From NCBI GenBank assembly GCA_019912845.1, contig JAIOHU010000004.1:1-40740 (forward strand): DNA of 40,740 bases. The letters run 5' to 3'. This document shows positions 16,067-32,403 of this stretch, one piece after another. How positions within the stretch are numbered: the first letter of the stretch is position 1; the number at the start of each line of letters is the position of its first letter. The position numbers and the translations under genes are program-made. The notes beneath the pieces were generated by a model. The model had not been told where the DNA came from. It saw nothing but the letters and a program-made list of their open reading frames with translations, and ran no database searches. Source of the stretch: a bacterium. GTDB taxonomy: Bacteria; Electryoneota; Electryoneia; Electryoneales; Electryoneaceae.

Positions 16067-17815
16067 ATGATGTTCCGTCTTCTTTTTATCTGTTCAGGCT
16101 CCTCCGGACGCAGTCAGATGGCTGCGAGGTACGCTCGTCTCTTAGCCGATGAGACGGTGGAGGTTTTCTGTGCGGGTACGAAAGAGCTGGACATCTCGAA
16201 ATATGCAAATTTAGTAATGAACGATGTAAATCTACCCATTGAGAATGAGAGAACGCTGCCCATTTCTGAAGCCGCAAAGATGCCTTTCGATACCGTTGTT
16301 ACACTTTGTGATTCAGCGTACGAGAAGTGCCCGCTTTTCCCCGGATCCCCCGCTCGAATTGACTGGGGGCTTACAGACCCGATGAAACTTGTACCTGATG
16401 GCAAAGACCCCACTGAGTATTTTGTACGGCTGCGTGATGAGATTCGTGACCGCGTACGTGCTCTCTTTGAGCATGGATATATTCATGCGATTATGCGTCA
16501 ACGATTCACCTTTAATTCGCTCCTGAATAACATGGCGGATGGGGTGATGGCACACGACAGCAAACGAAAAATATTCTATTTCAACGAAGCTGCCAGAAAA
16601 ATCACCGGCTTTTCCTATTCAGAGGTCATTGGTAAAGACTGCCATAAAATCTTTCCGCAACCATTTTGTGGTGTAAGTTGTGGGTTCTGCACGGATAAGC
16701 CTGATGTTTCTACAAAGCTGCATTATTCAACCACTTTCCACCGAAAAGATGGTAAGACTCTTGACCTGGAAGTCTCTATGATTGCCATAGAAGACAATAG
16801 TGATGCAACTCAGCAGGGTGGTTTAATCATCTTCCGTGACCTGACCGAGATGAACAAACTCAAACGAAAGATTGAGCAGGGACGCGGGTATCATGGCATC
16901 ATCGGACGTCACGATTCCATGCAGAAAATTTTTAATTCCATTCAGGAACTGGCAGATGTAAATGTGCCCATTTTGGTTCAGGGAGAGAGTGGAACGGGGA
17001 AAGAGGTTGTTGCCAATGCACTGCATGATCTAAGCAACCGTGCAGATCAACCATTTGTGCCGGTTAATTGTGGTGCGCTTCCCGAGGGCACTCTTGAGAG
17101 CGAACTTTTCGGACATGTAAAGGGAGCCTTCACCAGCGCACATCGTGATAAAAAGGGCAGATTTGAGTTGGCTCACAATGGAACAATCTTTCTTGATGAA
17201 ATATCAGAGGTTTCTCAAGCTACCCAGGTGAAATTGTTACGAGTGCTGCAGGAAAAAAGTTTTGTTCCCGTGGGAGGTGAGAAGGAAGTAAAGGTAAATG
17301 TAAGGGTTATCTGCGCGACGAACGATGATCTTAAAAAGTTGACCCAGGAAGGCAAATTCAGGGAAGACCTTTATTACCGTCTCGTTGTAGTACCGATTCT
17401 TTTACCTCCGTTGCGTGATCGGAAAAGCGATATCCCACTTCTCGTTGATCATTTTCTCGAGCAGTATTCCAGCGAAACCGGTAAAATGGTTACAAGCGTC
17501 AATTCGGATGCTCTTGAAATTCTGGAAGCGTATTCCTGGCCTGGGAATGTGCGCGAATTAAGCAATGCTATTCAATATTCACTCATTAAATGCCAGGGGT
17601 ATACACTTCAACCTAATCATCTTCCACCCGAAGTGATCAATGAAGTGAAGAGCAGTATGAGACGCGGTCCCGGTCGTCCACCGAAGCTGAGTCGTCAAAA
17701 AGTTGAGGAAGCCCTTTCTCGAACAGGTGGAAATCTCGCAAAAGCTGCAACACTGCTAGGCGTAAGCCGTCCAACCCTCTACAGGGTGCTCAAAAAAAGC
17801 GACCCTGTAACGTAA
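16067..17815 (+). CDS. Sigma-54 activator with ArsC-like and PAS sensors
   Basis: A 582-aa regulator with an unusual sensor. Residues 1-140 are a low-molecular-weight phosphatase/ArsC fold: P-loop Cys9-x5-Arg15-Ser (CSGSSGRS), Cys81 and Cys88 (LCDSAYEKC), and Asp104-Pro105 (WGLTDP), at nearly the same numbers as thioredoxin-linked arsenate reductases. The PAS domain (about 147-265) carries Cys192, 201, 205 and 208. The AAA+ domain (about 277-510) has Walker A GESGTGKE (306-313), GAFTSA (353-358, normally GAFTGA) and Walker B IFLDE. A Fis-type helix-turn-helix ends the protein (about 540-578). It should drive sigma-54 promoters such as the one at 18039, 220 bp downstream. GGGA precedes the start; ATG 16070 is an alternative. 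Confidence 0.9.
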   Translation: MMFRLLFICSGSSGRSQMAARYARLLADETVEVFCAGTKELDISKYANLVMNDVNLPIENERTLPISEAAKMPFDTVVTLCDSAYEKCPLFPGSPARIDWGLTDPMKLVPDGKDPTEYFVRLRDEIRDRVRALFEHGYIHAIMRQRFTFNSLLNNMADGVMAHDSKRKIFYFNEAARKITGFSYSEVIGKDCHKIFPQPFCGVSCGFCTDKPDVSTKLHYSTTFHRKDGKTLDLEVSMIAIEDNSDATQQGGLIIFRDLTEMNKLKRKIEQGRGYHGIIGRHDSMQKIFNSIQELADVNVPILVQGESGTGKEVVANALHDLSNRADQPFVPVNCGALPEGTLESELFGHVKGAFTSAHRDKKGRFELAHNGTIFLDEISEVSQATQVKLLRVLQEKSFVPVGGEKEVKVNVRVICATNDDLKKLTQEGKFREDLYYRLVVVPILLPPLRDRKSDIPLLVDHFLEQYSSETGKMVTSVNSDALEILEAYSWPGNVRELSNAIQYSLIKCQGYTLQPNHLPPEVINEVKSSMRRGPGRPPKLSRQKVEEALSRTGGNLAKAATLLGVSRPTLYRVLKKSDPVT

Positions 17816-18038: not shown

Positions 18039-18054
18039 TGGCACATTCATTGCT
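18039..18054 (+). promoter_or_regulatory. Sigma-54 (-24/-12) promoter of cytochrome cluster
   Basis: TGGCACATTCATTGCT matches the consensus TGGCAC-N5-TTGC(A/T) at every fixed position, with GG and GC exactly 10 bp apart. Transcription should begin near 18065, 25 bases before the ATG at 18090. It lies directly downstream of a sigma-54 activator gene. This also rules out the longer frame that would begin at 18015, upstream of the promoter. Confidence 0.85.
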
Positions 18055-18089: not shown

Positions 18090-18308
18090 ATGGCAGCTAA
18101 CATCTCAAATAAGAATCTGACTAAAGTACTGGAACTAACTCGGGAGATGCTTGATCTGGCTGAAGACGGCGACCGAAATAGAACAGACAGTACTTGTGGA
18201 ATTCTTTTTGGATTCCTGCGCGACAGCGCTTACAAGCTGAGGAGGATGACTGATCACGAGATCGAACTCCATCGTAAGCGTGGCGAATGGGAAGATGAGT
18301 CGGAATAA
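18090..18308 (+). CDS. 72-aa conserved-looking protein, first in cluster
   Basis: The product is a small, soluble, charged protein with no signal peptide and no recognised domain. It appears helical: LTKVLELTREMLDLAEDGD, then RTDSTCGILFGFLRDSAYKL, then a charged tail with HRKRGEWEDESE. There is a single Cys in the DSTCG segment. The ATG is preceded by AGGTGGAG and lies about 25 bases after the predicted sigma-54 transcription start; the longer frame from 18015 would begin before the promoter. The position at the head of an electron-transfer operon suggests an accessory or regulatory role, but the function is unknown. Confidence 0.7.
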   Translation: MAANISNKNLTKVLELTREMLDLAEDGDRNRTDSTCGILFGFLRDSAYKLRRMTDHEIELHRKRGEWEDESE

Positions 18309-18385: not shown

Positions 18386-19648
18386 ATGAACATAGCGAAA
18401 ACAAAAGGCATGGTTCTGATGCTGGCGATTCTGATTCTCTGCATCCTCGTACCAACCACAACCTCCCATGCTGTGCGCATTAGGGGTAGTGTAGGCGCGG
18501 ATGCTTATGGTTATCAGGATCAGCAGGGTGAAGATCACCTCTGGCTGATGCAGAAGACACGTTTTTCGTTATACCATGCGAACAATCCTCTCTCGCTGCA
18601 TTTTTCAGGTGGTTATTTAGGTGACAACCATGATGAGTTCAGCAATTCAGGACGTGGACGTTTCCTCAAGGGATACATTCAGTATGGTGGTCTCGGCAGG
18701 AATACGGATATTCGAGCGGGTCGATTCTTCCTCTATCGTGGTGTAGCATTGGGAGTTATGGACGGTATTGATATCTCCCATAACATCCTGCCTAACCTGA
18801 AGATGAGTGTGTTCGGCGGTATGATGGGTGATTATTCCAGAGATTTTGAATTTGAGGATCCAAGCGAATCGATGAGCTACGGTGCTGAAGTCAAATTCAG
18901 CTCGAAGAATTGCCCAATGCCTTATGCGACAAAAGGTACTGTAGCACTCTCTTATACTCAGCAGAATCGTGCCGATCAAACGCTGAGACATCGCTACGGC
19001 TTAAATACCAATCACAGATTCGGCAGCAATTTGAGTTGGTTCAATACTGTTCACATGCGAGCCACTGAGGCACCGCTGAGAAAATGGATCAGCAGGTTAC
19101 GTTACAACTGCACCAAATGGTCAGCAATGTTTGAGTATGGCTTAGCGTCTCCAGATGTTGCAGAATATTCCTGGTTCAGTGGATTTGCCGAAGCGAAATA
19201 CATGAGAATACGTGGAGCAGTTGATTACTGGGTAACTCCACAAAAATATGCTGTCGGATTTGAACTTCAAGAGTTGATTGCTGAGAACGGCAACGGCTTC
19301 AGAGGTGGTCCGGTGGTACATACCCCTTGGGGTCAAGCTGGATACCGTCTTGCGGGTGGAGATCAATCCAACACAACGGGTCCCTGGGTCAATGCACACT
19401 TCAAACCTGTTGATCCACTCGAACTATATGCATTTGGAGCAATGGTAAGTTACGAATGGGATGCGATGGACATTGAAACAGACGATCTCACCATGATGTT
19501 TGCGGGTGCGAGATTTAATCCCTGTCGTATGCCATCCTTGCAGTTATTTGCTGAATACCAGGTTTACCAGAACCGTGAATTTTCGGATGACAAAAGGGCT
19601 CGCGGGGGAATTACCTGGAACTTTGACCTGAAAGGAGGCGGACGATGA
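18386..19648 (+). CDS. Outer-membrane beta-barrel of porin-cytochrome conduit
   Basis: A 420-aa protein with a long signal peptide (cleavage near SHA-VR, residue 28) and alternating hydrophobic/polar strands with aromatic girdle residues, for example LSLHFSGGYLGD, TDIRAGRFFLYRGVALG and LQLFAEYQVY. It ends in ITWNFDLKGGGR, typical of an outer membrane barrel. It has no heme motif. In porin-cytochrome complexes a barrel of this kind encloses a multiheme cytochrome that carries electrons across the outer membrane; the gene overlaps the next, 12-heme gene by ATGA, which supports that role. The start has a strong AAAGGAGG site. The exact barrel family is not recognised. Confidence 0.78.
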   Translation: MNIAKTKGMVLMLAILILCILVPTTTSHAVRIRGSVGADAYGYQDQQGEDHLWLMQKTRFSLYHANNPLSLHFSGGYLGDNHDEFSNSGRGRFLKGYIQYGGLGRNTDIRAGRFFLYRGVALGVMDGIDISHNILPNLKMSVFGGMMGDYSRDFEFEDPSESMSYGAEVKFSSKNCPMPYATKGTVALSYTQQNRADQTLRHRYGLNTNHRFGSNLSWFNTVHMRATEAPLRKWISRLRYNCTKWSAMFEYGLASPDVAEYSWFSGFAEAKYMRIRGAVDYWVTPQKYAVGFELQELIAENGNGFRGGPVVHTPWGQAGYRLAGGDQSNTTGPWVNAHFKPVDPLELYAFGAMVSYEWDAMDIETDDLTMMFAGARFNPCRMPSLQLFAEYQVYQNREFSDDKRARGGITWNFDLKGGGR

Positions 19649-20541
19649 ATCGTGTATTCAATGCTAAAAGTCTGGCTCTGGTCGTAATAATGATATTGGT
19701 CGCTGTAGCGATGGTTTACAGCAAGAAGACAGAGAGCAGAGACGTACTGAACTTCGATCACCCACTTCATCTTGAAGATGCTGGTCTTGAGTGCAGTGAC
19801 TGCCATGAAGGAATAGATGGTCTTGCCGCAGGTGAACGTGCGATGCCAACACACGATACTTGTGAAGCCTGTCATGTTGTTGATGATATTGATGAATGCG
19901 GTATGTGTCATGTAAACCCTGATGATCCAGTAGCACTACCGCCAGTTAAGGGGATGTACGAAGGTTTCGCACACAATGTTCATGCGAAAGCTGAGCTTAA
20001 CTGTGATCAGTGCCACGGTGGTGCGGAGATGATAGACAGTGGCAATGCTTTCCCGACAATGAATGATTGCCAGAATTGCCATACCCTTGAATTGGCTGAC
20101 CTCGATTGTGGGATTTGCCATTTGGGTAAAGACCCTGTTCCCGCTGATCATGAAATGGTTACCTGGCACATGGATCATGGTTTGGAAGCCTCCGCCGGCA
20201 CATCCGATTGCGCATCCTGCCACACTCAACAGAGTTGTGATGAGTGCCACCAGGGAGAATTTCTGGATGGTTCGCCTCACCCAGGCGGCTGGAAATTCCA
20301 GCATTCGAGTGAAGTTTCCTTTGGCGGTGAATGCATGACCTGTCACGAAAGCAGAGATGAGTGTACAAGCTGCCATCGTGCCATGGTTCCCATCCCGCAC
20401 ACATTTGGAGTTGAATTCGCGAATCCAGTAGATGGTGGAAGCCATAAGGATGATGCGGAAGCATTTATTGAGAGCTGCATTTCATGCCACGATGTGGGAG
20501 AAGACGACCCCACATGTGCACGTTGCCATGATTACAAGTGA
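19645..20541 (+). CDS. 12-heme periplasmic c-type cytochrome
   Basis: This 298-aa protein has an N-terminal signal/anchor (about 1-25) and 12 CXXCH heme c sites (CSDCH, CEACH, CGMCH, CDQCH, CQNCH, CGICH, CASCH, CDECH, CMTCH, CTSCH, CISCH, CARCH), about one per 24 residues. Many free His residues (for example FDHPLH, FAHNVHA, WHMDHG, FQHSSE) can serve as distal ligands. The pattern resembles the cytochrome c7/c3-like or DmsE/MtrA-type periplasmic partner of an outer membrane porin. Its ATG overlaps the stop codon of the beta-barrel gene, so the two are translationally coupled and probably form one complex. Confidence 0.88.
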   Translation: MNRVFNAKSLALVVIMILVAVAMVYSKKTESRDVLNFDHPLHLEDAGLECSDCHEGIDGLAAGERAMPTHDTCEACHVVDDIDECGMCHVNPDDPVALPPVKGMYEGFAHNVHAKAELNCDQCHGGAEMIDSGNAFPTMNDCQNCHTLELADLDCGICHLGKDPVPADHEMVTWHMDHGLEASAGTSDCASCHTQQSCDECHQGEFLDGSPHPGGWKFQHSSEVSFGGECMTCHESRDECTSCHRAMVPIPHTFGVEFANPVDGGSHKDDAEAFIESCISCHDVGEDDPTCARCHDYK

Positions 20542-20551
20542 GGGGATTACG

Positions 20552-21568
20552 ATGACCAACATGACTAAAAAGCAAATTGTGCTTATCATCGCCCTGTTCG
20601 CAGCCTTGTTAATCGCAGGTGCAGGGTGTGAGAGCGAAGTAGATCCGGAATACAACGAGTTTACATCAGTGGAAAGTTATCACAATTTTGATGGTACACG
20701 TGAGCATGATGACTATCTGCTATCCCTGCCTCTGGTAAATGGAATGTATGACGTGTCCGAATGCCAGGAGTGCCATGGAGCAGATTTACGCGGTGTACCA
20801 GAAGGACCCGATGGTGGAACGCTACGCTCCTGCTATCGTTGCCATAATGAAAATCGTCACAGAATCGGTTTCGATGATGTCGATGAGCATTCAGATTATA
20901 TGGTAATGCACGAGTGGGAGATGGATGACTGCTTCCTCTGCCATACTGCAACAACCCAGGGCGGAGCATACTCCTTCGGTGGATCATGCTCAAGCACAAA
21001 TTGTCATTCGGATGGACACGGCGGACCGAACGCCTGTAATACCTGTCACGGCGATTTTTCAAAAGATCCTGGTAATCTTGACAATGCTGCACCACCACGG
21101 GATGTGAACAAAAATGTATCGACCGATTCGGTTGGAGTTGGTGCACACCAGACACATCTGAACCCGAATTCAGCTTTGTTTGCGGAAATAGAATGTTCAG
21201 CGTGCCATGTAGTACCTGATGAAGTGAATTCAGATCGTCATATTCAAGACAATATACCGCATCGCTCTGAAGTGATATTCAGCGGTGTAGCAAGCGCAGA
21301 TAACGCTAGTCCGAGATGGAACCATGATGAGGCAACCTGCTCTTCAACTCACTGCCACGGAGATGGTGCAACACCTGTCTGGACTGAAGTGGGTGAAGGA
21401 TGGGGTGACTGTGGAAGTTGCCACACCATGCCACCGAGTATACCACGTCATGATGAATATGCGATGACAGATTGTGTTGAATGCCATAGTCCAACAGTAG
21501 ATGCGAATGGCAATATTATTCATCCAGAAAAGCATGTAAATGGTGTGGTAGATTTACTGTTCCCATAA
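20552..21568 (+). CDS. 9-heme lipoprotein, CxxxxCH/CxxCH (GSu) family
   Basis: A 338-aa protein with a lipoprotein-like signal (LLIAGAGC, Cys26) and nine heme sites: seven CXXCH and two CX4CH (CSSTNCH, CSSTHCH). The C-terminal block, CSSTHCHGDGATPVW ... CGSCHTMPP ... CVECHSP ... HVNGVVDL, is characteristic of the Geobacter-type C4xC/C2xCH cytochrome domain found in OmcB/OmcX-like outer surface lipoproteins. It is therefore the likely external partner of the porin-cytochrome conduit. The frame extends 40 codons upstream into the preceding gene, but the ATG at 20552, ten bases past that gene's stop and after GAGGGG, is the start. Confidence 0.85.
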   Translation: MTNMTKKQIVLIIALFAALLIAGAGCESEVDPEYNEFTSVESYHNFDGTREHDDYLLSLPLVNGMYDVSECQECHGADLRGVPEGPDGGTLRSCYRCHNENRHRIGFDDVDEHSDYMVMHEWEMDDCFLCHTATTQGGAYSFGGSCSSTNCHSDGHGGPNACNTCHGDFSKDPGNLDNAAPPRDVNKNVSTDSVGVGAHQTHLNPNSALFAEIECSACHVVPDEVNSDRHIQDNIPHRSEVIFSGVASADNASPRWNHDEATCSSTHCHGDGATPVWTEVGEGWGDCGSCHTMPPSIPRHDEYAMTDCVECHSPTVDANGNIIHPEKHVNGVVDLLFP

Positions 21569-21621: not shown

Positions 21622-22179
21622 ATGCGGAAACTCATTTTGATAGCCTTGGCGCTTGGAATGATTGGGATGGTGTTGATTCCTGTTCTTGCCGAAGCGGAAG
21701 AGGGTGAAGCTGCTGGCCATGCCTATATCGGCGTGAAACGATGTGGAATGTGCCATAAGGGTGACAAGAATGGCAACATACTTGAAACCTGGGAAGCGGG
21801 TCCCCATGCAAAAGCATATGCAACTCTCGCATCTGAAGAGGCAAAAGCCGCCTATACTGAAATGGGTAAAGAAGGCAATCCACAGGAAGATCCAGCTTGT
21901 TTGAAGTGCCATGTGACCGGTCACGGTGCAGATGCAGCGTTAACTGGAAAACTCGATATGGCGAATGGCATTTCATGTGAAGCCTGTCACGGTGCTGGTG
22001 GTGACTATTGGAAGAAAAATATCATGGAAGATCGGGAACAGTCGATTGCCAATGGTATGGTTGCAGCTCCAAAAGAGCATTGTGTAAGTTGCCATAACGA
22101 AGAAAGTCCAACATTCAAAGGTTTTGAGGTAGAGGAATACTACTCAAAGATTATTCATTCGCTCCCTGAAGGCGAATAA
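21622..22179 (+). CDS. Tetraheme cytochrome, c554-like
   Basis: A 185-aa exported protein with a signal peptide (cleavage near LAEAEE) and four CXXCH sites: CGMCH, CLKCH, CEACH and CVSCH. The arrangement YIGVKRCGMCHKG, WEAGPHAKAY, PACLKCHVTGHG, GISCEACHGAGG and HCVSCHNEESPTFKGF is that of the cytochrome c554/c-prime-like family common in metal-reducing bacteria. It probably shuttles electrons in the periplasm. AGGG lies upstream of the ATG. It is the fourth cytochrome-related gene of the operon; a strong hairpin follows it. Confidence 0.87.
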   Translation: MRKLILIALALGMIGMVLIPVLAEAEEGEAAGHAYIGVKRCGMCHKGDKNGNILETWEAGPHAKAYATLASEEAKAAYTEMGKEGNPQEDPACLKCHVTGHGADAALTGKLDMANGISCEACHGAGGDYWKKNIMEDREQSIANGMVAAPKEHCVSCHNEESPTFKGFEVEEYYSKIIHSLPEGE

Positions 22180-22330: not shown

Positions 22331-23695
22331 ATGAGACAACTTTCAATAGCTTTTCTACTCTTTTGTCTGATAATCACTTTTGGCATGCTGATGGGATGTG
22401 CAGAAGATGACGAAGGAAATCCAGCAGATCCAATCGTACAGTCTAGCACGGAATCAGACTGTCAGGGCTGCCATACAGATCGTGTTATGTTGATGGCAAC
22501 CGCTGATCCGATTGAAGAGGTTCCACCACCAGAAGGTGGAGGTGAAGGTTGAGGCGGCTCAGTACCTGAGCTGGAAGCTTGGGAAAAAGTATTTATCGAT
22601 GTGAGTGACCCGGATCGCAGAGGCGGTCTATTTATAAATGATATTCATGGTTCTATCGGTTGCGATAATTGCCATGGTGGTATAAACGAGGTTCTTTCAA
22701 AAGCGGATGCACATGCGGGTCTGGTAAGAGACCCATCTATAATGGCAGAGGAGACTTGTGGACGTTGCCATGCGGGTATTGCAAGCACTTTCGAAAGCAG
22801 CCTTCACCGGAATTTCACCGGCTACGAGACGCTTTTTGAAGCACGTGCGGGTATTCAATTTGAAGACCATCCTGAAATTCAAGAGGAATTTGAAGCTGAA
22901 TGCGGAACGTGTCATACCACCTGCGGGCAGTGCCATGTAAGTCGTCCAAACAGTGTAAAGGGTGGTTTGGTGCAGGGGCATCGATTCATGCCAACACCAA
23001 ATCAATCGGAGCAGTGTACAGCGTGCCATGGATCACGAGTTGGCGAAGAATACACTGGTTCACGTGATGGCTATAACGCTGATGTCCATTATATCCAGGC
23101 GATTATGAACTGCATGGATTGCCATACTGGACAGGAGATGCACGGCAACGGTACCGAATATGAAACCAGGTACCACAGTGATGATATGCCTCGTTGTGAG
23201 GATTGTCATGCAGGGCAGGGTACATCGAATAATTATCACTCTCAGCATTGGGGTGAATTATCCTGCCAGGTTTGTCACAGCCAGGATTACAAATCGTGCA
23301 ATAAATGTCATGTGGGCGGCACTGGAATCAGAGAACCATCCTACATCAGTTTCAAAATTGGAAAAAATCCGATTCCAGAGCAACGTGACTACGAGTATGT
23401 CGCCCTGCGGCATATCCCCATCGCAACAGATACATACGCGCCCTGGGGAATTGAAAACCTTGAAAATTACGAGGCACTGCCGAGTTGGAAATATGCAAGT
23501 CCGCATAATATACAAAGATGGACTGCACGTACAGATACAACTGGTGGTCAAGGGTGTGCAACAGCATGCCATACAACACCAAATACTGTTGATGGATTTT
23601 TCCTCCGTGAAGTGGATATGAATGAGTTTGATACTTTGGAGGAGAAAGAAGCAAATCGTCCTTACATCGTACCGGACGGTCCACCACCCTGGTAA
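22331..23695 (+). CDS. 11-heme lipoprotein, candidate selenoprotein
   Basis: The frame 22331-23695 (454 residues) is interrupted only by a TGA at codon 74 (22550-22552). Before it come a lipobox (Cys23, MLMGC), heme site CQGCH and GGGEG; after it, GGSVPELEAW and ten more heme sites: nine CXXCH and one CX3CH (CATACH). The downstream part alone would lack a signal peptide and a ribosome site (only a GTG at 22601). Just past the TGA, CCTGAGC (22565-22571) / GCTTGGG (22577-22583) form a hairpin with loop TGGAA, 19 nt from the codon, which fits bacterial SECIS rules. TGA is a normal stop in neighbouring genes. Selenocysteine is therefore the best reading; a nonsense mutation or sequence error is the alternative. 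Start: GGGGGA before ATG. Confidence 0.78.
22565..22583 (+). promoter_or_regulatory. Candidate bacterial SECIS hairpin
   Basis: A 7-bp stem (CCTGAGC with GCTTGGG, including two G-U pairs) closes a five-base loop TGGAA, with G in the second loop position. The loop begins 20 nt after the TGA at 22550-22552. SelB-binding elements normally have the loop 16-37 nt downstream with a G in its first two positions. A competing GCTCAG/CTGAGC stem is also possible. Confidence 0.6.
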
Positions 23696-23777: not shown

Positions 23778-24785
23778 ATGAAATTTACAAAGTCTTTAAC
23801 CTGGCTGGTGATTTTAGTCGTCGCAATAGGGTTTATTGGATGTTCCGATGATGACGATGACAACCCGGCAGACAACAACTCGATGCAGAACTACTTCGAT
23901 GAGATTACAGAAATCGGAGATGCATACTACACTGGCGGAACAAAAAATGTCAGCTCTGCTGCACTTCATGAAGCACTCGGTAACGGTGAAGAATATTTCA
24001 TTATCGACTATCGTTCCGCAGAGCACTTTACTGGCGTTGGTCATATTGATGCGGATGCATATCAGAATGCCACCATCGTAAACTGGGCAGCAGGTGACCT
24101 GATGGATAACCTGGATCAGATTCCTGATGGTGTAAAAGTTGCAAACGTCTGTTACTCTGGTCAGACAGCTTCTCAAGCAACTTCAATTCTCCGGTTGTTG
24201 GGATATGATGCTTACAACGTACTATTTGGAATGTGTGGCTGGACAGCAGATACAGCAGTAAATCTTAGCAAATGGGCAAACATTGAACCGGGTGGACAAC
24301 CTTTGGAAACTGATGCAAATGAGCTTGCAACAGAAATTGCTTACCCTCAAGCCAGATCAGATGCAGGTGATGTTGACGGCGCAATCATGGAATTGGCAGA
24401 TGCATATTTTGAGGGTGGAACCCACAATGTAAGTGCAGCTGCAGTTTACGAAGCAAACTCTGATAACGATGATACAAATGACTATTTCGTAGTCAACTAT
24501 TTCCCGGAATCAAATTATCTGGCTGGTCATATTCCTGGCGCATACCGTATTCCAAGTAATGAACTTACGAAGGAATGGCTCAAGTATCTGCCGACAGATC
24601 AACCAGTCGTGATTTATTGCTGGACAGGTCAAACCTCAAGCCAGGTAACTTCATATCTGAATGTTCTTGGTTATGATGCATACAGCATGCTGTATGGTGT
24701 AAACACAATTACTGATGACCCGAATGTTAATGGTCATGAATACTCTGCCCCGGGTCAGAATTACCCGGTTACCGACCCTCAATAA
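23778..24785 (+). CDS. Tandem rhodanese lipoprotein
   Basis: A 335-aa protein with a lipobox (IGFIGC, Cys22) and an acidic linker (SDDDDDNPAD), then two rhodanese domains. Both retain the active-site cysteine loop: CYSGQTAS followed by SILRLLGYDAYNVLFG, and CWTGQTSS followed by SYLNVLGYDAYSMLYG. Rhodaneses form persulfide (or selenenyl-sulfide) on this Cys and transfer it to thiols or cyanide. Its export and location in a cytochrome operon parallel ExtH, the rhodanese lipoprotein of the Geobacter ext cluster, whose role is also unresolved. The ATG at 23778 after AAGGATG is preferred over the upstream start at 23751. The two domains look like an internal duplication. Confidence 0.85.
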   Translation: MKFTKSLTWLVILVVAIGFIGCSDDDDDNPADNNSMQNYFDEITEIGDAYYTGGTKNVSSAALHEALGNGEEYFIIDYRSAEHFTGVGHIDADAYQNATIVNWAAGDLMDNLDQIPDGVKVANVCYSGQTASQATSILRLLGYDAYNVLFGMCGWTADTAVNLSKWANIEPGGQPLETDANELATEIAYPQARSDAGDVDGAIMELADAYFEGGTHNVSAAAVYEANSDNDDTNDYFVVNYFPESNYLAGHIPGAYRIPSNELTKEWLKYLPTDQPVVIYCWTGQTSSQVTSYLNVLGYDAYSMLYGVNTITDDPNVNGHEYSAPGQNYPVTDPQ

Positions 24786-24993: not shown

Positions 24994-27582
24994 ATGCGGT
25001 TCCAAGAAACGGACAAAATCATGCAACCATCAAATTCGCGCACATCCCTTCTTGTGAAAAAAGGTATGATCTCTGTACTCTTTTTGTTGCTGTCTGGATG
25101 TTTTTTCTTCACTCCAGAGGTCGTGTACGGATCGGCAGAAGATTGTCTGATGTGCCATGCAGACCTTGAATTGGAGGCGATGGATGGCAATCTCGTCGGA
25201 GTAAACCAGGATGCATTTGAAGCTAGTGTACATGGTTTCTTCGACTGTACTGATTGCCATGAGCAAAAGGCGGATTATGATGATATCCCGCATTATGATG
25301 TTTACCAGAAAGTAGACTGCAGTTCCTGTCATTCAGATTGGTCAGCAAGTTTCAAAGGCAGTTTTCATGGGAAAGCCCTTTCTCATGGTACTCCCAACGC
25401 GCCAGACTGTTCAGCCTGTCATGGTGTTAAGAGTGATCCGCATGCGATTAAGGAACTGAATATCCGTACCGCAGAGACTGCCTGCCAACGTTGCCATGTT
25501 TCAGAAAGTCGTCAATATGATGGCAGTGTGCATCACATAGCAGCGGCAAATGGGAAAGATAGTCCTGGATGTATCAGTTGCCACCCCACTCATGATAGTG
25601 CCTTGCCGCCTTCGGCAGGTGCTGTAAACAACCTTTGCGAAACCTGTCATACTGGCGCGATGGATCAGGTGATGATGGGCGATCACAAAGCTGTAGAAAG
25701 CACCATGTCTTGTGCATCATGTCATGATGTACATGCAACAGATAAACCACATATTGATGAAAGTACAATAGAAGCGTGCAACAATTGCCACGAAGGGTAT
25801 AAAGATCAATTTGTCGGATCAGTTCACGAACCTTTATTAGCTGATGGCACAATGAATTGTGTCTCCTGCCATAAAACACATCAGGTGGAACGTGAAGATG
25901 GAAAAGTAGACCTTGGTTGTGGTGCCTGTCATAGCGACGTGGAAGAAGATTTCCGCTCTAGTGCACATCGTCTTGGCAGATTAAGAGGAGATAATGTTGC
26001 TGCTGATTGCGCAGACTGCCATAATGGTCATCATGTTCTGGCGGCGGATGATAAAGAGAGCCCGGTTAACCATTTCCAAATTCCTAATACCTGTGGAAAG
26101 TGTCACACTGATGCAACGATTATTACAACAGATTATGTTCGATTGCCTATCAGTTTACCAAGTTACCAGAAATCAGTGCATGGTACAGGTTGGGTGGAGG
26201 GCAAAAAAACAGCGGTATGTACAGACTGTCATGGCACACACGACCTTATGTCCGCTTCGAATCCGCAGAGTCGCATTGCGAAGGGCAATATCGCCACGAC
26301 TTGTGGACAGTGCCATTCGCATATCTCCGAGCAATATCTGAACTCAGTTCATGGTAGAGCTGTTGCACATGGTATTAATGATTCTCCAGATTGCACTGAC
26401 TGTCATGATGAACACCTCATCTTGAGTACCGATGACCCCAAAGCGGCAGTTAATCCCAGCAACCAGGCTTTAGATGCGTGTGGTGGGTGTCATACTGATC
26501 CGGAAATGGCTGCACGCTATGGTTTACCACCGGAAGTCGTTGAGAGTTACGTGGACTCATATCATGGCTGGGCAATCAAACGTGGTGGCGGGACTGTTGC
26601 AGTATGTGAAGATTGCCACAATACGCACGATATCAGGAGTATCCTTGATCCTCAGTCATCTATTCACCCTGACAATGTCGTATCGACATGCGGTCGTTGC
26701 CATGAAAATTCCAACCCGCAATTTGCCGCCAGTTACAATCACATTCTCGCTCGCGACAAAATGGGGATACACGACTGGGTTCGTATTATCTACATCATTC
26801 TGATAGCGCTTGTGCTGGGTGGAATGGCTGTACACAACCTGCTTATTTTCATTCACTACCTTATTCATCACTACCGTGATCACAAGAAAAAACCAGCTAT
26901 TCGTCGTATGACCAAGGACGAGCTCTGGCAGCATACTATTCTGGCGGTAACTTTCATTGGATTGTCAATCACCGGATTTGCGTTACGTTTCCCTGATTCA
27001 TGGTGGGTGGAAATTCTGGGGATGATAGGCATGGATGAATTTGTTCGTGCGCTGTTACACCGTATCCTCGCTACACTGTTGGTTGGTGCTTCAATCTATC
27101 ACGTGTTCTTCCTGGCATTCACTAAACGTGGTCACTATCAGCTCAAGGGACTTATGCCCGGGATGCGCGATGCGAAAGAAGCAATGGCAAATGTTGGATA
27201 TTATGCTGGACTGAGCAAAAAAGCTCCGGTGTTCGGGATGTACGATTATACACAGAAAGCAGAATACTGGGCTTTGATCTGGGGAACTGCAATTATGACC
27301 CTGACAGGTGCAGTGCTTCTCTTCCCCGATCTGGTAACACATTGGTTGCCAGCCTGGGTGGTACGTGTCAGCGAAACGATCCATTTCTACGAGGCGATCC
27401 TGGCAGTTGGAGCAATAATAATATGGCACTTCTTCTTCACCATTTTTACTCCGCCTGAATATCCGATGAGTTGGATTTGGATTACTGGTAGAATGCCCAA
27501 AGATCAGTGGGAGCATCACCATGGAAAAGAAGCGATTGATATGGGTAAAGAGCCAGAGGCTCTCCCACCTGTAAAGGATTGA
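24994..27582 (+). CDS. 19-heme cytochrome c fused to cytochrome b domain
   Basis: An 862-aa protein with a signal peptide/lipobox (LLLSGC) and 19 CXXCH motifs between residues about 50 and 570, interspersed with S-x-H or Y-H ligand motifs (SVHGF, SFHGK, SVHGT, SYHGW). From about 595 the C-terminus has four to five membrane helices with His residues suited to b hemes (HNLLIFIHYLIHH, LLHRILATLLVGASIYHV, ETIHFYEAI, WHFFF), as in formate dehydrogenase/hydrogenase-type cytochrome b. The layout resembles Geobacter CbcL but with about twice as many c hemes. The likely role is quinol oxidation with electron output to the periplasm. The start is uncertain: ATG 24994, ATG 25021 or a nearby GTG; none has a strong ribosome site. 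Confidence 0.85.
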   Translation: MRFQETDKIMQPSNSRTSLLVKKGMISVLFLLLSGCFFFTPEVVYGSAEDCLMCHADLELEAMDGNLVGVNQDAFEASVHGFFDCTDCHEQKADYDDIPHYDVYQKVDCSSCHSDWSASFKGSFHGKALSHGTPNAPDCSACHGVKSDPHAIKELNIRTAETACQRCHVSESRQYDGSVHHIAAANGKDSPGCISCHPTHDSALPPSAGAVNNLCETCHTGAMDQVMMGDHKAVESTMSCASCHDVHATDKPHIDESTIEACNNCHEGYKDQFVGSVHEPLLADGTMNCVSCHKTHQVEREDGKVDLGCGACHSDVEEDFRSSAHRLGRLRGDNVAADCADCHNGHHVLAADDKESPVNHFQIPNTCGKCHTDATIITTDYVRLPISLPSYQKSVHGTGWVEGKKTAVCTDCHGTHDLMSASNPQSRIAKGNIATTCGQCHSHISEQYLNSVHGRAVAHGINDSPDCTDCHDEHLILSTDDPKAAVNPSNQALDACGGCHTDPEMAARYGLPPEVVESYVDSYHGWAIKRGGGTVAVCEDCHNTHDIRSILDPQSSIHPDNVVSTCGRCHENSNPQFAASYNHILARDKMGIHDWVRIIYIILIALVLGGMAVHNLLIFIHYLIHHYRDHKKKPAIRRMTKDELWQHTILAVTFIGLSITGFALRFPDSWWVEILGMIGMDEFVRALLHRILATLLVGASIYHVFFLAFTKRGHYQLKGLMPGMRDAKEAMANVGYYAGLSKKAPVFGMYDYTQKAEYWALIWGTAIMTLTGAVLLFPDLVTHWLPAWVVRVSETIHFYEAILAVGAIIIWHFFFTIFTPPEYPMSWIWITGRMPKDQWEHHHGKEAIDMGKEPEALPPVKD

Positions 27583-27765
27583 GATAGGAACACCTAACTT
27601 TTTGCATAACAAGAGTTTAAAGTATACCTTATGGGTGAGAATTAAACTCAACCGATAGGGGGGCCGCAGCAGGTGGATGAGGGTGGAAGACGGATTCCAC
27701 CGGACATGAAAGAGAATTTCGTTGTAGCTCATCCGCAGGTAGTTGTCTAGAAGAAGGCGGTCGTG

Positions 27766-29814
27766 ATGAAAACCCTGTTTAGAGAGTTTTATACAGCCAT
27801 CTGGGAGGTATTCAAGCTCCCATTCTTTCTGATTGCTGAAGGCTTTCGCAGACTATTTGCGCTGGGTTGGCGAAAGCTGGTTATGCTTTCAGCAGCAGCG
27901 GTTATCCTCACCTTTGTCGTCCTGGGGCTGTTTTTTGAAGTAACCACACATCCTGATTTCTGTGGTAGTTGCCATCTCATGCGTCCGTATATCGCCGCTT
28001 GGGAGCATTCTTCGCACGCCGATGTATCCTGTATGAAATGCCATGCAAAACCTGGACTTACGGGCTATCTTGAGACAAAGTTCACAGCTATGTCTATGTT
28101 GGCGAATTATGCGACTGGGCTCTATAAACGGTCCAAACCGTGGGCAGAAATTGAAGATGCAAATTGTCTTACCGGGGGATGCCACCAGACACGCCTTCTC
28201 GATGGGGAGATCGAATTTACCAGGGGAATTAAATTCGATCACACACCACACCTGAGCGAAACCCGACGTGGTCGAAAACTGCGATGCACAAGCTGTCACT
28301 CGCAGATTGTTCAGGGGGAACATATTTCGGTTACAACCTCCACCTGCTTTCTTTGCCATTTTAAGAACGTCACAGTCGAGAGACGTGAAGAACTTGCCAA
28401 CTGTACACTCTGTCACCAGACCCTTCCGGGAATGGAGGGTTATGCGCCAATGCATAACCTCGATACAGAGCTGATCAGCAGTGATACGCACGGTGACGTT
28501 ACTGAACATATTGGAGCGGTAAAAAAGGAAGCTGATTGGCAGACATCACAAGATGCAGGTGCTGTACCCGCCTTATTTGATCACACAAATATCGTGGCTG
28601 ATAGTGTTGCCTGTAATACTTGTCACCAGAGGATGTGGTCAGGAAACGGTAATGTTCTTCGGGAACGATGTGGTAGTTGCCATAGCCAGGCTGAGCACAT
28701 CAACCGTATCGACGATCTCGAGTTTATTCACGAGATGCACATTGAAAAACGGAAGGTGGAATGCCAACGCTGTCATGATGCCATCACTCACCAGAATCCG
28801 CCTTTAGTAGAGCATATCGAAGGAAATTGCAATACCTGCCACGCTAATCCTCACTCACCCATGCTGGCAGTGTATAGCGGAACAGGATCACGTCTGGTTG
28901 ATGAGGTAATTCCTGATATCATGTACCAATCGGGTGTTGTTTGTGCCTCCTGCCACCGTGACTTGGAAACAGGGATGAGCGAAGCAAATATCAGCAGTGA
29001 TGTTACCTGCGCTCCTTGCCACAAGGATAATTATCTTACTCTGGCAAAAGATTGGCGAAAAGGATATCAGGCTCGTGTGGCTGATATGCAACGCGCATTA
29101 GCCCAAGCTGGAAGTCATCCTCAGATCGAATCAGTCCGTCACGATCTCGCTCTTCTTTCACGTGGTGGTAGCTGGCACAATCCAAAATTCGCGGATAAAG
29201 TCCTTGACGCAGCAGGTGAAGTGTTGGGTAGTGCAGGTGCAAAAATCAAAAAACCTGCGAATGTACCAGCAGCCTCCAGGGAATGTCTCACCTGTCATGC
29301 AGCAATACTTTCAGCAAATGTGTCATTACCGTGGTCAGATTTCGATCATCCTGCTCATATAAGTGAACGTAACCTGAACTGTACCCAATGCCACATCGGT
29401 GGAAAACCTGAAGAGCGATCACACGGGCAAAGGAAAGCATCAAGTCAAGCCTGTGTAGATTGCCACCATTCACCTGAAAACGAAGAATGTGCTACCTGCC
29501 ACTTCCCGTCTCAAAGGACATATCGTGGCGAAATACCTGAAAAACCAAGCGCACCTTCACCGATGGCAGACATGGGAATGGTTTGTACAGATTGCCATGA
29601 TGCATCTGTGAATTATCAGCCACCAGACACTGAGCAATGCCTCGGATGTCACGATCAGGAGGTCGTGGATAACCTGGAATTTGTTCGTGCTGAAATTCAT
29701 ACTCTGATTGAAGATGTGGGTAAACGTCCAAGCCGTGAGCAGCAAATTGTAATACGGGATCCTGGCAGAGCTGTTCATCACCCTGATTTGGCAAAAGAAT
29801 TATTGAAGAAATAA
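27766..29814 (+). CDS. 18-heme membrane-anchored NapC/NirT-like cytochrome
   Basis: This 682-aa protein has one N-terminal membrane helix (about 35-60) followed by the NapC/NrfH-type first heme FCGSCHLMRPYIAAWEHSSHADVSCMKCH, where Met may ligate heme 1. It carries 17 CXXCH sites and one CX4CH (CLTGGCH), 18 in all. A coiled region without hemes (about 425-500) separates two heme-rich parts. NapC-type proteins take electrons from menaquinol and pass them to periplasmic partners; this one is far longer than the usual 4-5-heme form. It lies between the two cytochrome b fusions, suggesting one membrane complex. The start is ATG 27766 after AAGGCGG; GTG 27763 is possible. Confidence 0.85.
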   Translation: MKTLFREFYTAIWEVFKLPFFLIAEGFRRLFALGWRKLVMLSAAAVILTFVVLGLFFEVTTHPDFCGSCHLMRPYIAAWEHSSHADVSCMKCHAKPGLTGYLETKFTAMSMLANYATGLYKRSKPWAEIEDANCLTGGCHQTRLLDGEIEFTRGIKFDHTPHLSETRRGRKLRCTSCHSQIVQGEHISVTTSTCFLCHFKNVTVERREELANCTLCHQTLPGMEGYAPMHNLDTELISSDTHGDVTEHIGAVKKEADWQTSQDAGAVPALFDHTNIVADSVACNTCHQRMWSGNGNVLRERCGSCHSQAEHINRIDDLEFIHEMHIEKRKVECQRCHDAITHQNPPLVEHIEGNCNTCHANPHSPMLAVYSGTGSRLVDEVIPDIMYQSGVVCASCHRDLETGMSEANISSDVTCAPCHKDNYLTLAKDWRKGYQARVADMQRALAQAGSHPQIESVRHDLALLSRGGSWHNPKFADKVLDAAGEVLGSAGAKIKKPANVPAASRECLTCHAAILSANVSLPWSDFDHPAHISERNLNCTQCHIGGKPEERSHGQRKASSQACVDCHHSPENEECATCHFPSQRTYRGEIPEKPSAPSPMADMGMVCTDCHDASVNYQPPDTEQCLGCHDQEVVDNLEFVRAEIHTLIEDVGKRPSREQQIVIRDPGRAVHHPDLAKELLKK

Positions 29815-29845: not shown

Positions 29846-29907
29846 CGTCAAAACTGACTTGTGAAGTTGATATCATATTGATGATCACCCAATCGGGAGG
29901 AAGTGTC

Positions 29908-32403
29908 TTGAAAACAATCACACGAATATCCATTCTTATGTTGGCACTGTTAATAGTTGCCATCGGAAATGGATTCGCTCAGAGCGATATGTGTGAAATG
30001 TGTCACGATGACCCGAGTTTGACGGTCACCGAGAGGGGGATTCCGCACTCGCTCTATGTTAATCAGGCGATGCTTGATAGTTCTGTGCATGAAGGGTTCA
30101 GTTGTACAGACTGTCACACCAGCCTCGATGGATTTGAAGATTTTCCGCACGCTGAAGAGTTGCCGGGTGTCTCCTGTGCTGATTGTCATTCAGATGTTTT
30201 TGACGCTTACATGACGGGCTTTTATGATCATCTCGCACAACGTGGGTTTACTGGTATTCCAGGGTGTACCCAGTGTCATGGGAATCATAATATCACTGAG
30301 CAAACCAATACAAGCCAGGTTTGTGGAATATGCCACAGTGTGCAGAGAAAACAGTTTGAGCAATCGATTCACTATGAAAAATCTGGTGGAAAAGTATCTT
30401 GCACAAGTTGTCATTCCGCTCATGAAAAAGATCAACGTGGTGATATGCTTCCGGCAGACTGGCGTGAGTTTACTGTTGATAAATGCATGGAGTGTCACCA
30501 GACAGACTCTGAAAATTATCTATCCTCACATCATTTCGCAGAAGTAAAAGCTGGGAATGAGCGTGCACCAATCTGTACCGATTGCCATAGTGACCACGCC
30601 ATCCATGCAGTTGAGGATCCTCGTTCTCTGGTTCACATTGATAAACTAGACGGAACCTGCGACAGTTGCCACCCAGGGCATGAAGCCACCATCCATCGTA
30701 AAGCGGGAGTGGATGACCGCCTTGAGACATGCGCAGCCTGCCATACTGGGCATAACACAGATATGGAACGTGTAGAGTCCAAAATTTACAAAGAAGCGGT
30801 TCCGCAAGTTTGTAATCAATGCCACTCCGATGAACGCCACAAACGTGAGAATCTTGCTCACGGCAAGATTATGATCGTTGATGACAAGGGCATGGAGGCG
30901 AATTGTACACAGTGCCATATATACCATTATAAAATGGCAGACAGCGATCACCTTGGTACTGTTACCGGAAGTTCGCTGAGTTGCCAGAACTGTCATGCTG
31001 AGGAGACCAAAGATTACGAACGAAGCGCACATGGTATTGCGAGAAGGAAGGGACACACCGAAGCTCCTAATTGTCAATCCTGCCATGGCGAAGAGGATAT
31101 CGTAAAAGTAAGCGAGCAGTTCGATGGTCAGTCGATTATCAGTTTGTGCAGCTCCTGTCATGCGAATCGTGAGATAACAATGCGTTTCCAGATTAATCCA
31201 AATGTTGTAAAGGGATACCTGGGAACATACCACGGTCAGGTTTATTCACTTGGCTATCAGGGAGAGGAATTTGCGACCTGTGTCTCATGCCATGATAACC
31301 ATCTTATTCTGCCAAAGGACAATCCTGAGTCCACAATTTCACAGGGACATATTATTGAAACCTGTGGTCGTTGCCATGAAGATGCGAATGTAAACTTCGT
31401 GTCTCAACTGCAGCATTACGATCCCATGGCGCATGAGGAACAACCGATCCTGAGTTTCATTCATTTTGCCATGGTCTGGCTGTTGCGTATCACGCTTTCG
31501 ATATTTGGAATTCACACATTACTTTGGATCATGCGTAGTATCATAGATCGCATACGTCATGGTAAACATGAAAAATTAAAGGGTAAATACCGTTATCGCA
31601 GGTTCAATAAAACCGAAAGATTCCTGCATGTTCTGGTAGTCGTCAGCTTCCTTACCCTGGCGATGACTGGATTGCCTTTGAAGTACAGCCATACAGAAGC
31701 GGCATATTGGATCGCAAGCCATCTGCTTGACCTGCATACCATGGCACTAATGCATCGTATAGCTGCCGGAATCACCTTTATGTACTTCGCAATTCATATT
31801 GGTGCACTAATTGGCAAACTTTTCAAACGTCAGTTAACCTTCAAACAGATGTTCTGGGGACCCGACAGCCTTATGCCCCAGCCTGTTGATGTTGTGCAGT
31901 TTGTTCAGCATGTCGGATTCTTCCTCGGTATGGCAAAAAAACCACAGTTTGGTCGATTTGCATACTGGGAGAAATTTGATTACTTCGCAGTTTTCTGGGG
32001 AGTCGCAGTGATTGGTATGTCAGGGTTAACTCTTTGGTTCCCGGAATTCTTTACAAGATTACTGCCAGGCTGGGTGATTAATGCCGCACATATCATCCAT
32101 TCAGAAGAAGCACTTCTGGCGACTGGGTTTATCTTTACCATTCATTTCTTCAATGAACATTTGCGACCCGAAAACTTCCCATTCGATGAGGTGATCTTTA
32201 CGGGAAGTATGAGTGAACACTATCTCGTGGCAGAACGTAACATTTGGTACGAGCGACTCAAATCAGAAGGCAAGCTGGAAGAGATAAAGGTGAAACCGAT
32301 GAAAACCTTCCCGCGTGTGTTGTGGTATATCTTCGGGTTTACTGCACTGTTCGTAGGGCTTGGGCTGCTTGGTCTGATTGTGGCAGGTACCTTTGTCGGC
32401 TAA
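29908..32403 (+). CDS. 17-heme cytochrome c fused to cytochrome b domain
   Basis: An 831-aa paralogue of the gene at 24994. A signal peptide ends near GFAQS, then 17 CXXCH sites lie within the first ~510 residues. The C-terminal four to five membrane helices have paired His ([51 protein letters not shown]), plus a final anchor helix ([17 protein letters not shown]). It is predicted to be a quinol-linked b/c electron-transfer protein. The first possible starts (TTG 29878, ATG 29881) lie before a strong GGGAGGA site; that site is six bases from a TTG at 29908, giving [15 protein letters not shown], so 29908 is chosen. It is the last gene of the cluster. Confidence 0.86.

Follow-up and report, generated by a model that had tools for sequence, protein, structure and literature searches.

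ExtKL of Geobacter sulfurreducens (GSU2937-2936, model NF040886) is a predicted selenocysteine (Sec) pentaheme cytochrome, a c-type protein whose gene has one in-frame TGA and lies in a cluster with the rhodanese-like protein ExtH and the outer-membrane porin ExtI (PMC1914089, PMC5877670, PMC6148476). The cluster has been tied to selenite and tellurite reduction, not to sulfur (PMC5877670). A 2026 catalogue of 119 prokaryotic selenoprotein families includes, as multiheme cytochromes, only ExtKL and a member of TIGR04315, the octaheme cytochromes of the tetrathionate reductase family; these are sulfur-linked, and according to the 2026 review one GenBank-annotated member contains Sec. The GSU2204 family of MtrB/PioB barrels (NF041027) is also predicted to consist of selenoproteins linked to extracellular electron transfer, with the Sec in the barrel and not in a cytochrome (PMC13188914).

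The window, which is the whole stretch of 40,740 nucleotides analysed here, encodes a multiheme cytochrome lipoprotein whose reading frame is interrupted once, by TGA. Its features are as follows.

22331 to 23695, forward strand: gene for the Sec multiheme cytochrome lipoprotein, 454 residues with U74, ten CXXCH motifs and one CX3CH motif, matching Pfam Cytochrome_C7/C554
22331 to 22399, forward strand: signal peptide with lipobox LMGC (Cys23), recognised from sequence
22550 to 22552, forward strand: in-frame TGA read as selenocysteine 74, in the motif GEGUGG
22565 to 22583, forward strand: bacterial SECIS hairpin with an 8 bp stem and apical loop GGA (22573-22575) starting 20 nt after the UGA, identified by synonymous constraint, covariation and the geometry of the selD SECIS

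The initial annotation had described two frames in the same phase, split by this single TGA, the first supplying a lipoprotein signal and one heme site. Both observations hold: between ATG 22331 and TAA 23693-23695 the TGA is the sole internal stop, and the upstream part carries the lipobox, a GC at whose position is found in most members of the family described below, together with one CXXCH. The ten heme sites claimed for the second part are reached only if CX3CH is counted, nine CXXCH motifs being accompanied by one CATACH. This last motif (residues 409-414) is CX3CH rather than CXXCH in most members from the window's phylum. The Sec position falls in a Gly-rich loop between hemes 1 and 2. 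An AlphaFold model of the protein is of moderate quality (pLDDT 73.4, pTM 0.70) and unreliable in the Sec loop, where residues 64-74 have pLDDT below 50. Sequence and fold searches of the PDB with the cytochrome gave no convincing relative; the top Foldseek match, 1sp3, is not significant (E 0.27, TM 0.21). The product is best explained as an exported, lipid-anchored cytochrome with about eleven hemes and a single Sec in a flexible, Gly-rich loop.

ExtKL is the nearest known thing in kind, but profile comparison does not place the two in one family. ExtKL has five hemes before its Sec, whereas the window's protein and its relatives have one before and about ten after, and the 2007 work on ExtKL detected no SECIS there (PMC1914089), in contrast to the strong element described below. 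NF040886, whose curated cut-off is 250 bits, did not match the window protein at E <= 1 and was absent from the 25 best-matched families of the 27 members scanned. Within the window's phylum no ExtKL match exceeded that cut-off, and none had an in-frame TGA. The locus cannot be called a Geobacter-type ext cluster either: functional analogues are present, but NF040901 (ExtH) does not recognise the rhodanese, and no NCBIfam model recognises the porin. TIGR04315, with a cut-off of 375 bits, gave at most weak partial matches below threshold, in 4 of 27 members and at 16 bits; the non-significant Foldseek match 1sp3 is a further likeness to that family. The porin likewise differs from the GSU2204 family in having neither an in-frame TGA nor a match to any NCBIfam model. 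No model in NCBIfam release 20 was met by the cytochrome family in profile searches, and nothing matching it is found in the 2026 catalogue. As far as these two sources go, GenBank not being covered, it appears to be a family of selenoproteins not yet catalogued.

The family as collected has 28 members: ten from the window's phylum, 17 from Chloroflexota and one on a contig labelled Thorarchaeota. Six loci come from named metagenome-assembled genomes, nine from further genomes of the window's phylum (of 39 in all) and 13 from 400 sampled Chloroflexota genomes, the survey being limited to these two phyla. The Chloroflexota loci taken were those with in-frame stops, and one is from the same genome as locus L018. 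No cytochrome relatives were found on viral contigs. A phylogenetic tree splits the two phyla with support of 99/99 and puts the Thorarchaeota-labelled sequence (L017, SHMX01000014.1) next to a Chloroflexota sequence. Because of this position and its bacterial-type SECIS, L017 is probably a misbinned Chloroflexota contig, as judged from sequence. A remote relative (L093, G063:C30) lacks the whole Sec loop and adjoins a NapC/NrfH-like cytochrome; it may represent an ancestral, non-Sec form.

The TGA occupies the same alignment column in all 28 members, and none has Cys or any other sense codon there. Nearly all share the motif GxGU[GA][GA]xx[PA], one heme motif precedes the Sec in every member, and the dipeptide GU, K86 and the heme motifs are invariant. 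This meets the criterion for a bacterial selenoprotein, namely an in-frame UGA with homology on both sides, conserved across species. The concern that a sequencing error had created the TGA is removed by its presence in independent genomes, and a homologue with another sense codon at the site, which would have counted against Sec, did not appear among the 28.

A different view of the same arrangement is that the TGA is a true stop, the halves being separate genes or a broken one. TGA does end neighbouring genes normally, and for ExtKL, with no SECIS found, a two-gene arrangement was left open in 2007 (PMC1914089). Here, homology runs unbroken across the TGA, which is retained across two phyla, and the SECIS covaries. 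The downstream half moreover has no ribosome site or signal peptide, yet heme attachment requires export. We regard this view as very nearly ruled out. Particular starts for a separate downstream gene were rejected on the same grounds. The earliest start codon 3' of the TGA is GTG 22601, which has no Shine-Dalgarno sequence (GGGAAAAAGTATTTATCGAT) and no signal peptide, as the initial annotation had stated for the second frame. The conserved TTG at codon +7 also lacks both a ribosome site and a signal peptide; its bases belong to the loop and stem of the SECIS, and other members have CTG or GTT in its place. A recoded genetic code was rejected as well, since genes nearby end in TGA (19646-19648, 20539-20541 and 27580-27582), in agreement with what had been said earlier from the window.

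The machinery for Sec, whose absence would have refuted the proposal, is complete in the window's genome, with selA, selB, selC and selD all present. The tRNA-Sec (selC) has anticodon UCA and scores 63.8 bits, SelB scores 358 bits, and SelA is split across two contig ends. The selD gene (L048, contig C58) has one in-frame TGA of its own, so that SelD is itself a predicted selenoprotein. A tRNA-Sec is also present in the six genomes of the named assemblies. Two genomes without a strong tRNA-Sec match, G023 and G030, have selB, in G030 as fragments only. Since at least 32 of the 39 genomes of the window's phylum have tRNA-Sec, its presence is uninformative as a test of co-occurrence.

A hairpin at the distance expected of a bacterial SECIS had been proposed from the window, with stem 22565-22583 and loop TGGAA. 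The stem is real; the loop is GGA, as UGGAA leaves the last U-A pair open. The window sequence does not by itself decide in favour of this hairpin. A competitor at 22556-22573 has a slightly lower energy (-9.0 versus -8.1 kcal/mol) and is the lowest-energy fold of this region in the window, and the dinucleotide-shuffle z of the SECIS hairpin is only -1.44. The 5' arm of the competitor lies 4-10 nt after the UGA, where by inference it is probably covered by the decoding ribosome. Comparative evidence is taken to settle the matter, because synonymous constraint, covariation and the invariant TGA agree. Codons +2 to +9 after the UGA show the strongest synonymous-site constraint in the gene (322 informative columns). 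In 23 members (register 1) nucleotides +10 to +16 pair with +20 to +26 around a loop of GUU or GGU; in the other five, the window, three members of its family and L020, +12 to +19 pair with +23 to +30 around GGA (register 2). Among the 21 distinct register-1 sequences, 95.2% of cells are paired versus 41-50% in slid controls, five of the seven stem pairs show compensatory double changes, and none of 500 shuffles reached the covariation score. The region also folds better than synonymous shuffles (mean z -1.09, negative in 26 of 28), the p-value being indicative only, as the members are related.

The published rule for bacterial SECIS elements requires a G in the first two loop positions and a loop 16-37 nt from the UGA (PMC13188914). 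It is satisfied across the 28 members, the first loop base being G in every one and the loop starting 17 or 20 nt after the UGA; the spacing claimed at the outset is thereby confirmed, with a covarying stem. An Rfam scan of the region returned nothing relevant. An internal positive control comes from selD in the window's genome. If the base that follows its UGA is numbered 0, the 8 bp stem of its SECIS pairs +12 to +19 with +23 to +30, and the loop, GGU, lies at +20; the window hairpin occupies identical positions and has the loop GGA. L020, from the other phylum, carries the same +20 form as the window and its family (L072-L074); the others have the +17 form. With two registers in one gene family, the SECIS would be evolving while the Sec stays fixed.

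Decoding of UGA 22550-22552 as Sec, at residue 74 as the initial annotation inferred, is on these genomic grounds (invariant TGA, Sec machinery and SECIS covariation) practically certain, short of biochemical proof. What the Sec does is much less clear. The role suggested in the initial annotation, that of a redox-active or acceptor-binding residue in extracellular electron transfer, is plausible as an inference. Ten histidines are conserved outside the heme motifs versus eleven heme motifs, which would fit axial ligation of one heme by Sec. A Met or a poorly conserved His could also fill the eleventh distal position, or the position could be vacant in a five-coordinate catalytic heme, and the model gives the Sec loop no geometry, so we consider such ligation highly improbable. 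Widening the idea to a Sec either ligating or docked directly on one c-type heme makes it scarcely any more probable. If true, an extracellular electron wire would end in a naturally occurring selenolate-heme site, and this would explain both the absent Cys version and the ten conserved distal histidines for eleven hemes.

The best clue to function is a conserved partner that had gone unremarked in the initial annotation.

23778 to 24785, forward strand: tandem rhodanese lipoprotein with both active-site Cys loops (CYSGQT and CWTGQT), its counterparts adjoining or fused to the cytochrome in 26 of 28 loci

In 24 loci a rhodanese is the immediate neighbour of the Sec cytochrome, and in two (L017 and L081) the proteins are fused. 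Of the two remaining loci, L022 stops 240 nt past the gene, and L091 represents a second copy of the cytochrome within one genome. The partners are mostly lipoproteins, have two or more domains, and in most cases retain intact CxxG[QH]T loops. In L017 it is rhodanese repeats that are fused to the Sec cytochrome. The remainder of the operon and its surroundings comprise the following.

16067 to 17815, forward strand: sigma-54 activator with ArsC/LMWPc-like and PAS domains (domain search)
18039 to 18053, forward strand: sigma-54 promoter-like site TGGCACATTCATTGC ahead of the operon, the only zero-mismatch match in the window
18386 to 19648, forward strand: 22-strand outer-membrane beta-barrel, porin-like (AlphaFold2 pLDDT 82.6; Foldseek matches to outer-membrane porins, E 2.9e-9)
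19645 to 20541, forward strand: periplasmic multiheme cytochrome, its gene overlapping that of the porin by ATGA
20552 to 21568, forward strand: multiheme cytochrome lipoprotein (ORF list, domain search)
21622 to 22179, forward strand: cytochrome c554-type tetraheme protein (ORF list, domain search)
24994 to 27582, forward strand: multiheme cytochrome fused to a cytochrome b domain (profile searches)
27763 to 29814, forward strand: NapC/NrfH-type multiheme cytochrome (profile searches)
29878 to 32403, forward strand: second multiheme protein with C-terminal membrane segments, probably cytochrome b (ORF; homologue in L073)

Because the porin is found also in genomes without the Sec cytochrome, the conserved core, as far as gene content indicates, is the Sec cytochrome plus the rhodanese. 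Downstream of the perfect -24/-12 element at 18039-18053 come a small ORF, itself conserved (18090-18308), and the operon of cytochromes. The N-terminus of the sigma-54 activator resembles ArsC and low-molecular-weight phosphatases; its CX5RS loop is intact, and it has a CDxxxxxCP motif. The protein may sense oxyanions or redox state for the operon.

In the explanation we propose, SelB and Sec-tRNA, aided by the hairpin at 22565-22583, decode the UGA, and the resulting selenol would serve as a two-electron chemical site. Its redox counterpart would be a persulfide, or a similar chalcogen species, carried on the active-site Cys of the partner rhodanese lipoprotein. The heme chain would carry electrons singly, in one direction or the other, between this site and the periplasmic cytochromes, the porin conduit and the operon's quinol enzymes of cytochrome b or NapC type. 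The direction we favour is reduction, of polysulfide, S0 or thiosulfate-type sulfur; there is no substrate evidence, and oxidation is not excluded. This inference rests on the Sec lying in a flexible loop and on the constant partner being a sulfur-carrying enzyme, a linkage that in itself implies sulfur or selenium chemistry only in general. Against it, the poorly modelled Sec loop yields no distance to heme or rhodanese, and the analogous Geobacter cluster is tied to selenite and tellurite instead of sulfur (PMC5877670). Taken whole and as worded, from selenoprotein to heme chain, the explanation is assigned a probability of about 0.5; rhodanese-coupled selenol chemistry, with no substrate known, is put forward tentatively.

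In the main rival view, the cytochrome acts at the cell surface on oxyanions of chalcogens or arsenic (selenite, tellurite, arsenate), reducing or detoxifying them, as proposed for ext, with the rhodanese handling the reduced selenium or sulfur product. The Geobacter cluster is alike in combining rhodanese ExtH, porin ExtI and Sec cytochrome ExtKL, deletion of extI impairs selenite and tellurite reduction there (PMC5877670), and an ArsC-like domain occurs in the activator beside the operon. However, in most family loci no ArsC-type regulator was found, and the mismatches to ext already given extend to all three proteins, the cytochrome and rhodanese failing the ExtKL and ExtH profiles and the porin any NCBIfam model. 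Such a role is possible but doubtful. We also think it unlikely that the Sec is non-catalytic and serves to bind metal or mineral, or for protection, in an extracellular electron transfer cytochrome of general function whose rhodanese linkage reflects shared regulation only. The operon genes are mostly electron-transfer cytochromes and a porin, and the Sec loop is flexible and Gly-rich, as such a role would allow; the absolute conservation of the Sec without Cys replacement weighs against it, as does a rhodanese linkage or fusion spanning two phyla, which points to specific chemistry.

Under the selenol-rhodanese explanation, the family appears to couple extracellular electron transfer to selenium chemistry. 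Homologues with cysteine exist for nearly all selenoproteins (PMC13188914). With no Cys homologue among the 28 members, Sec seems indispensable to the chemistry of this family. Because the TGA leads gene callers to cut the coding sequence in two, the distribution of the family is probably wider than is recognised. Its link to rhodaneses opens a direct test of what extracellular rhodaneses do in electron-transfer clusters. Like ExtKL, this second, apparently unrelated Sec multiheme cytochrome travels with a rhodanese, here a lipoprotein. With two apparently unrelated Sec cytochromes accompanying rhodaneses, the finding suggests a recurring solution in which a selenol wired to hemes handles extracellular sulfur or selenium.
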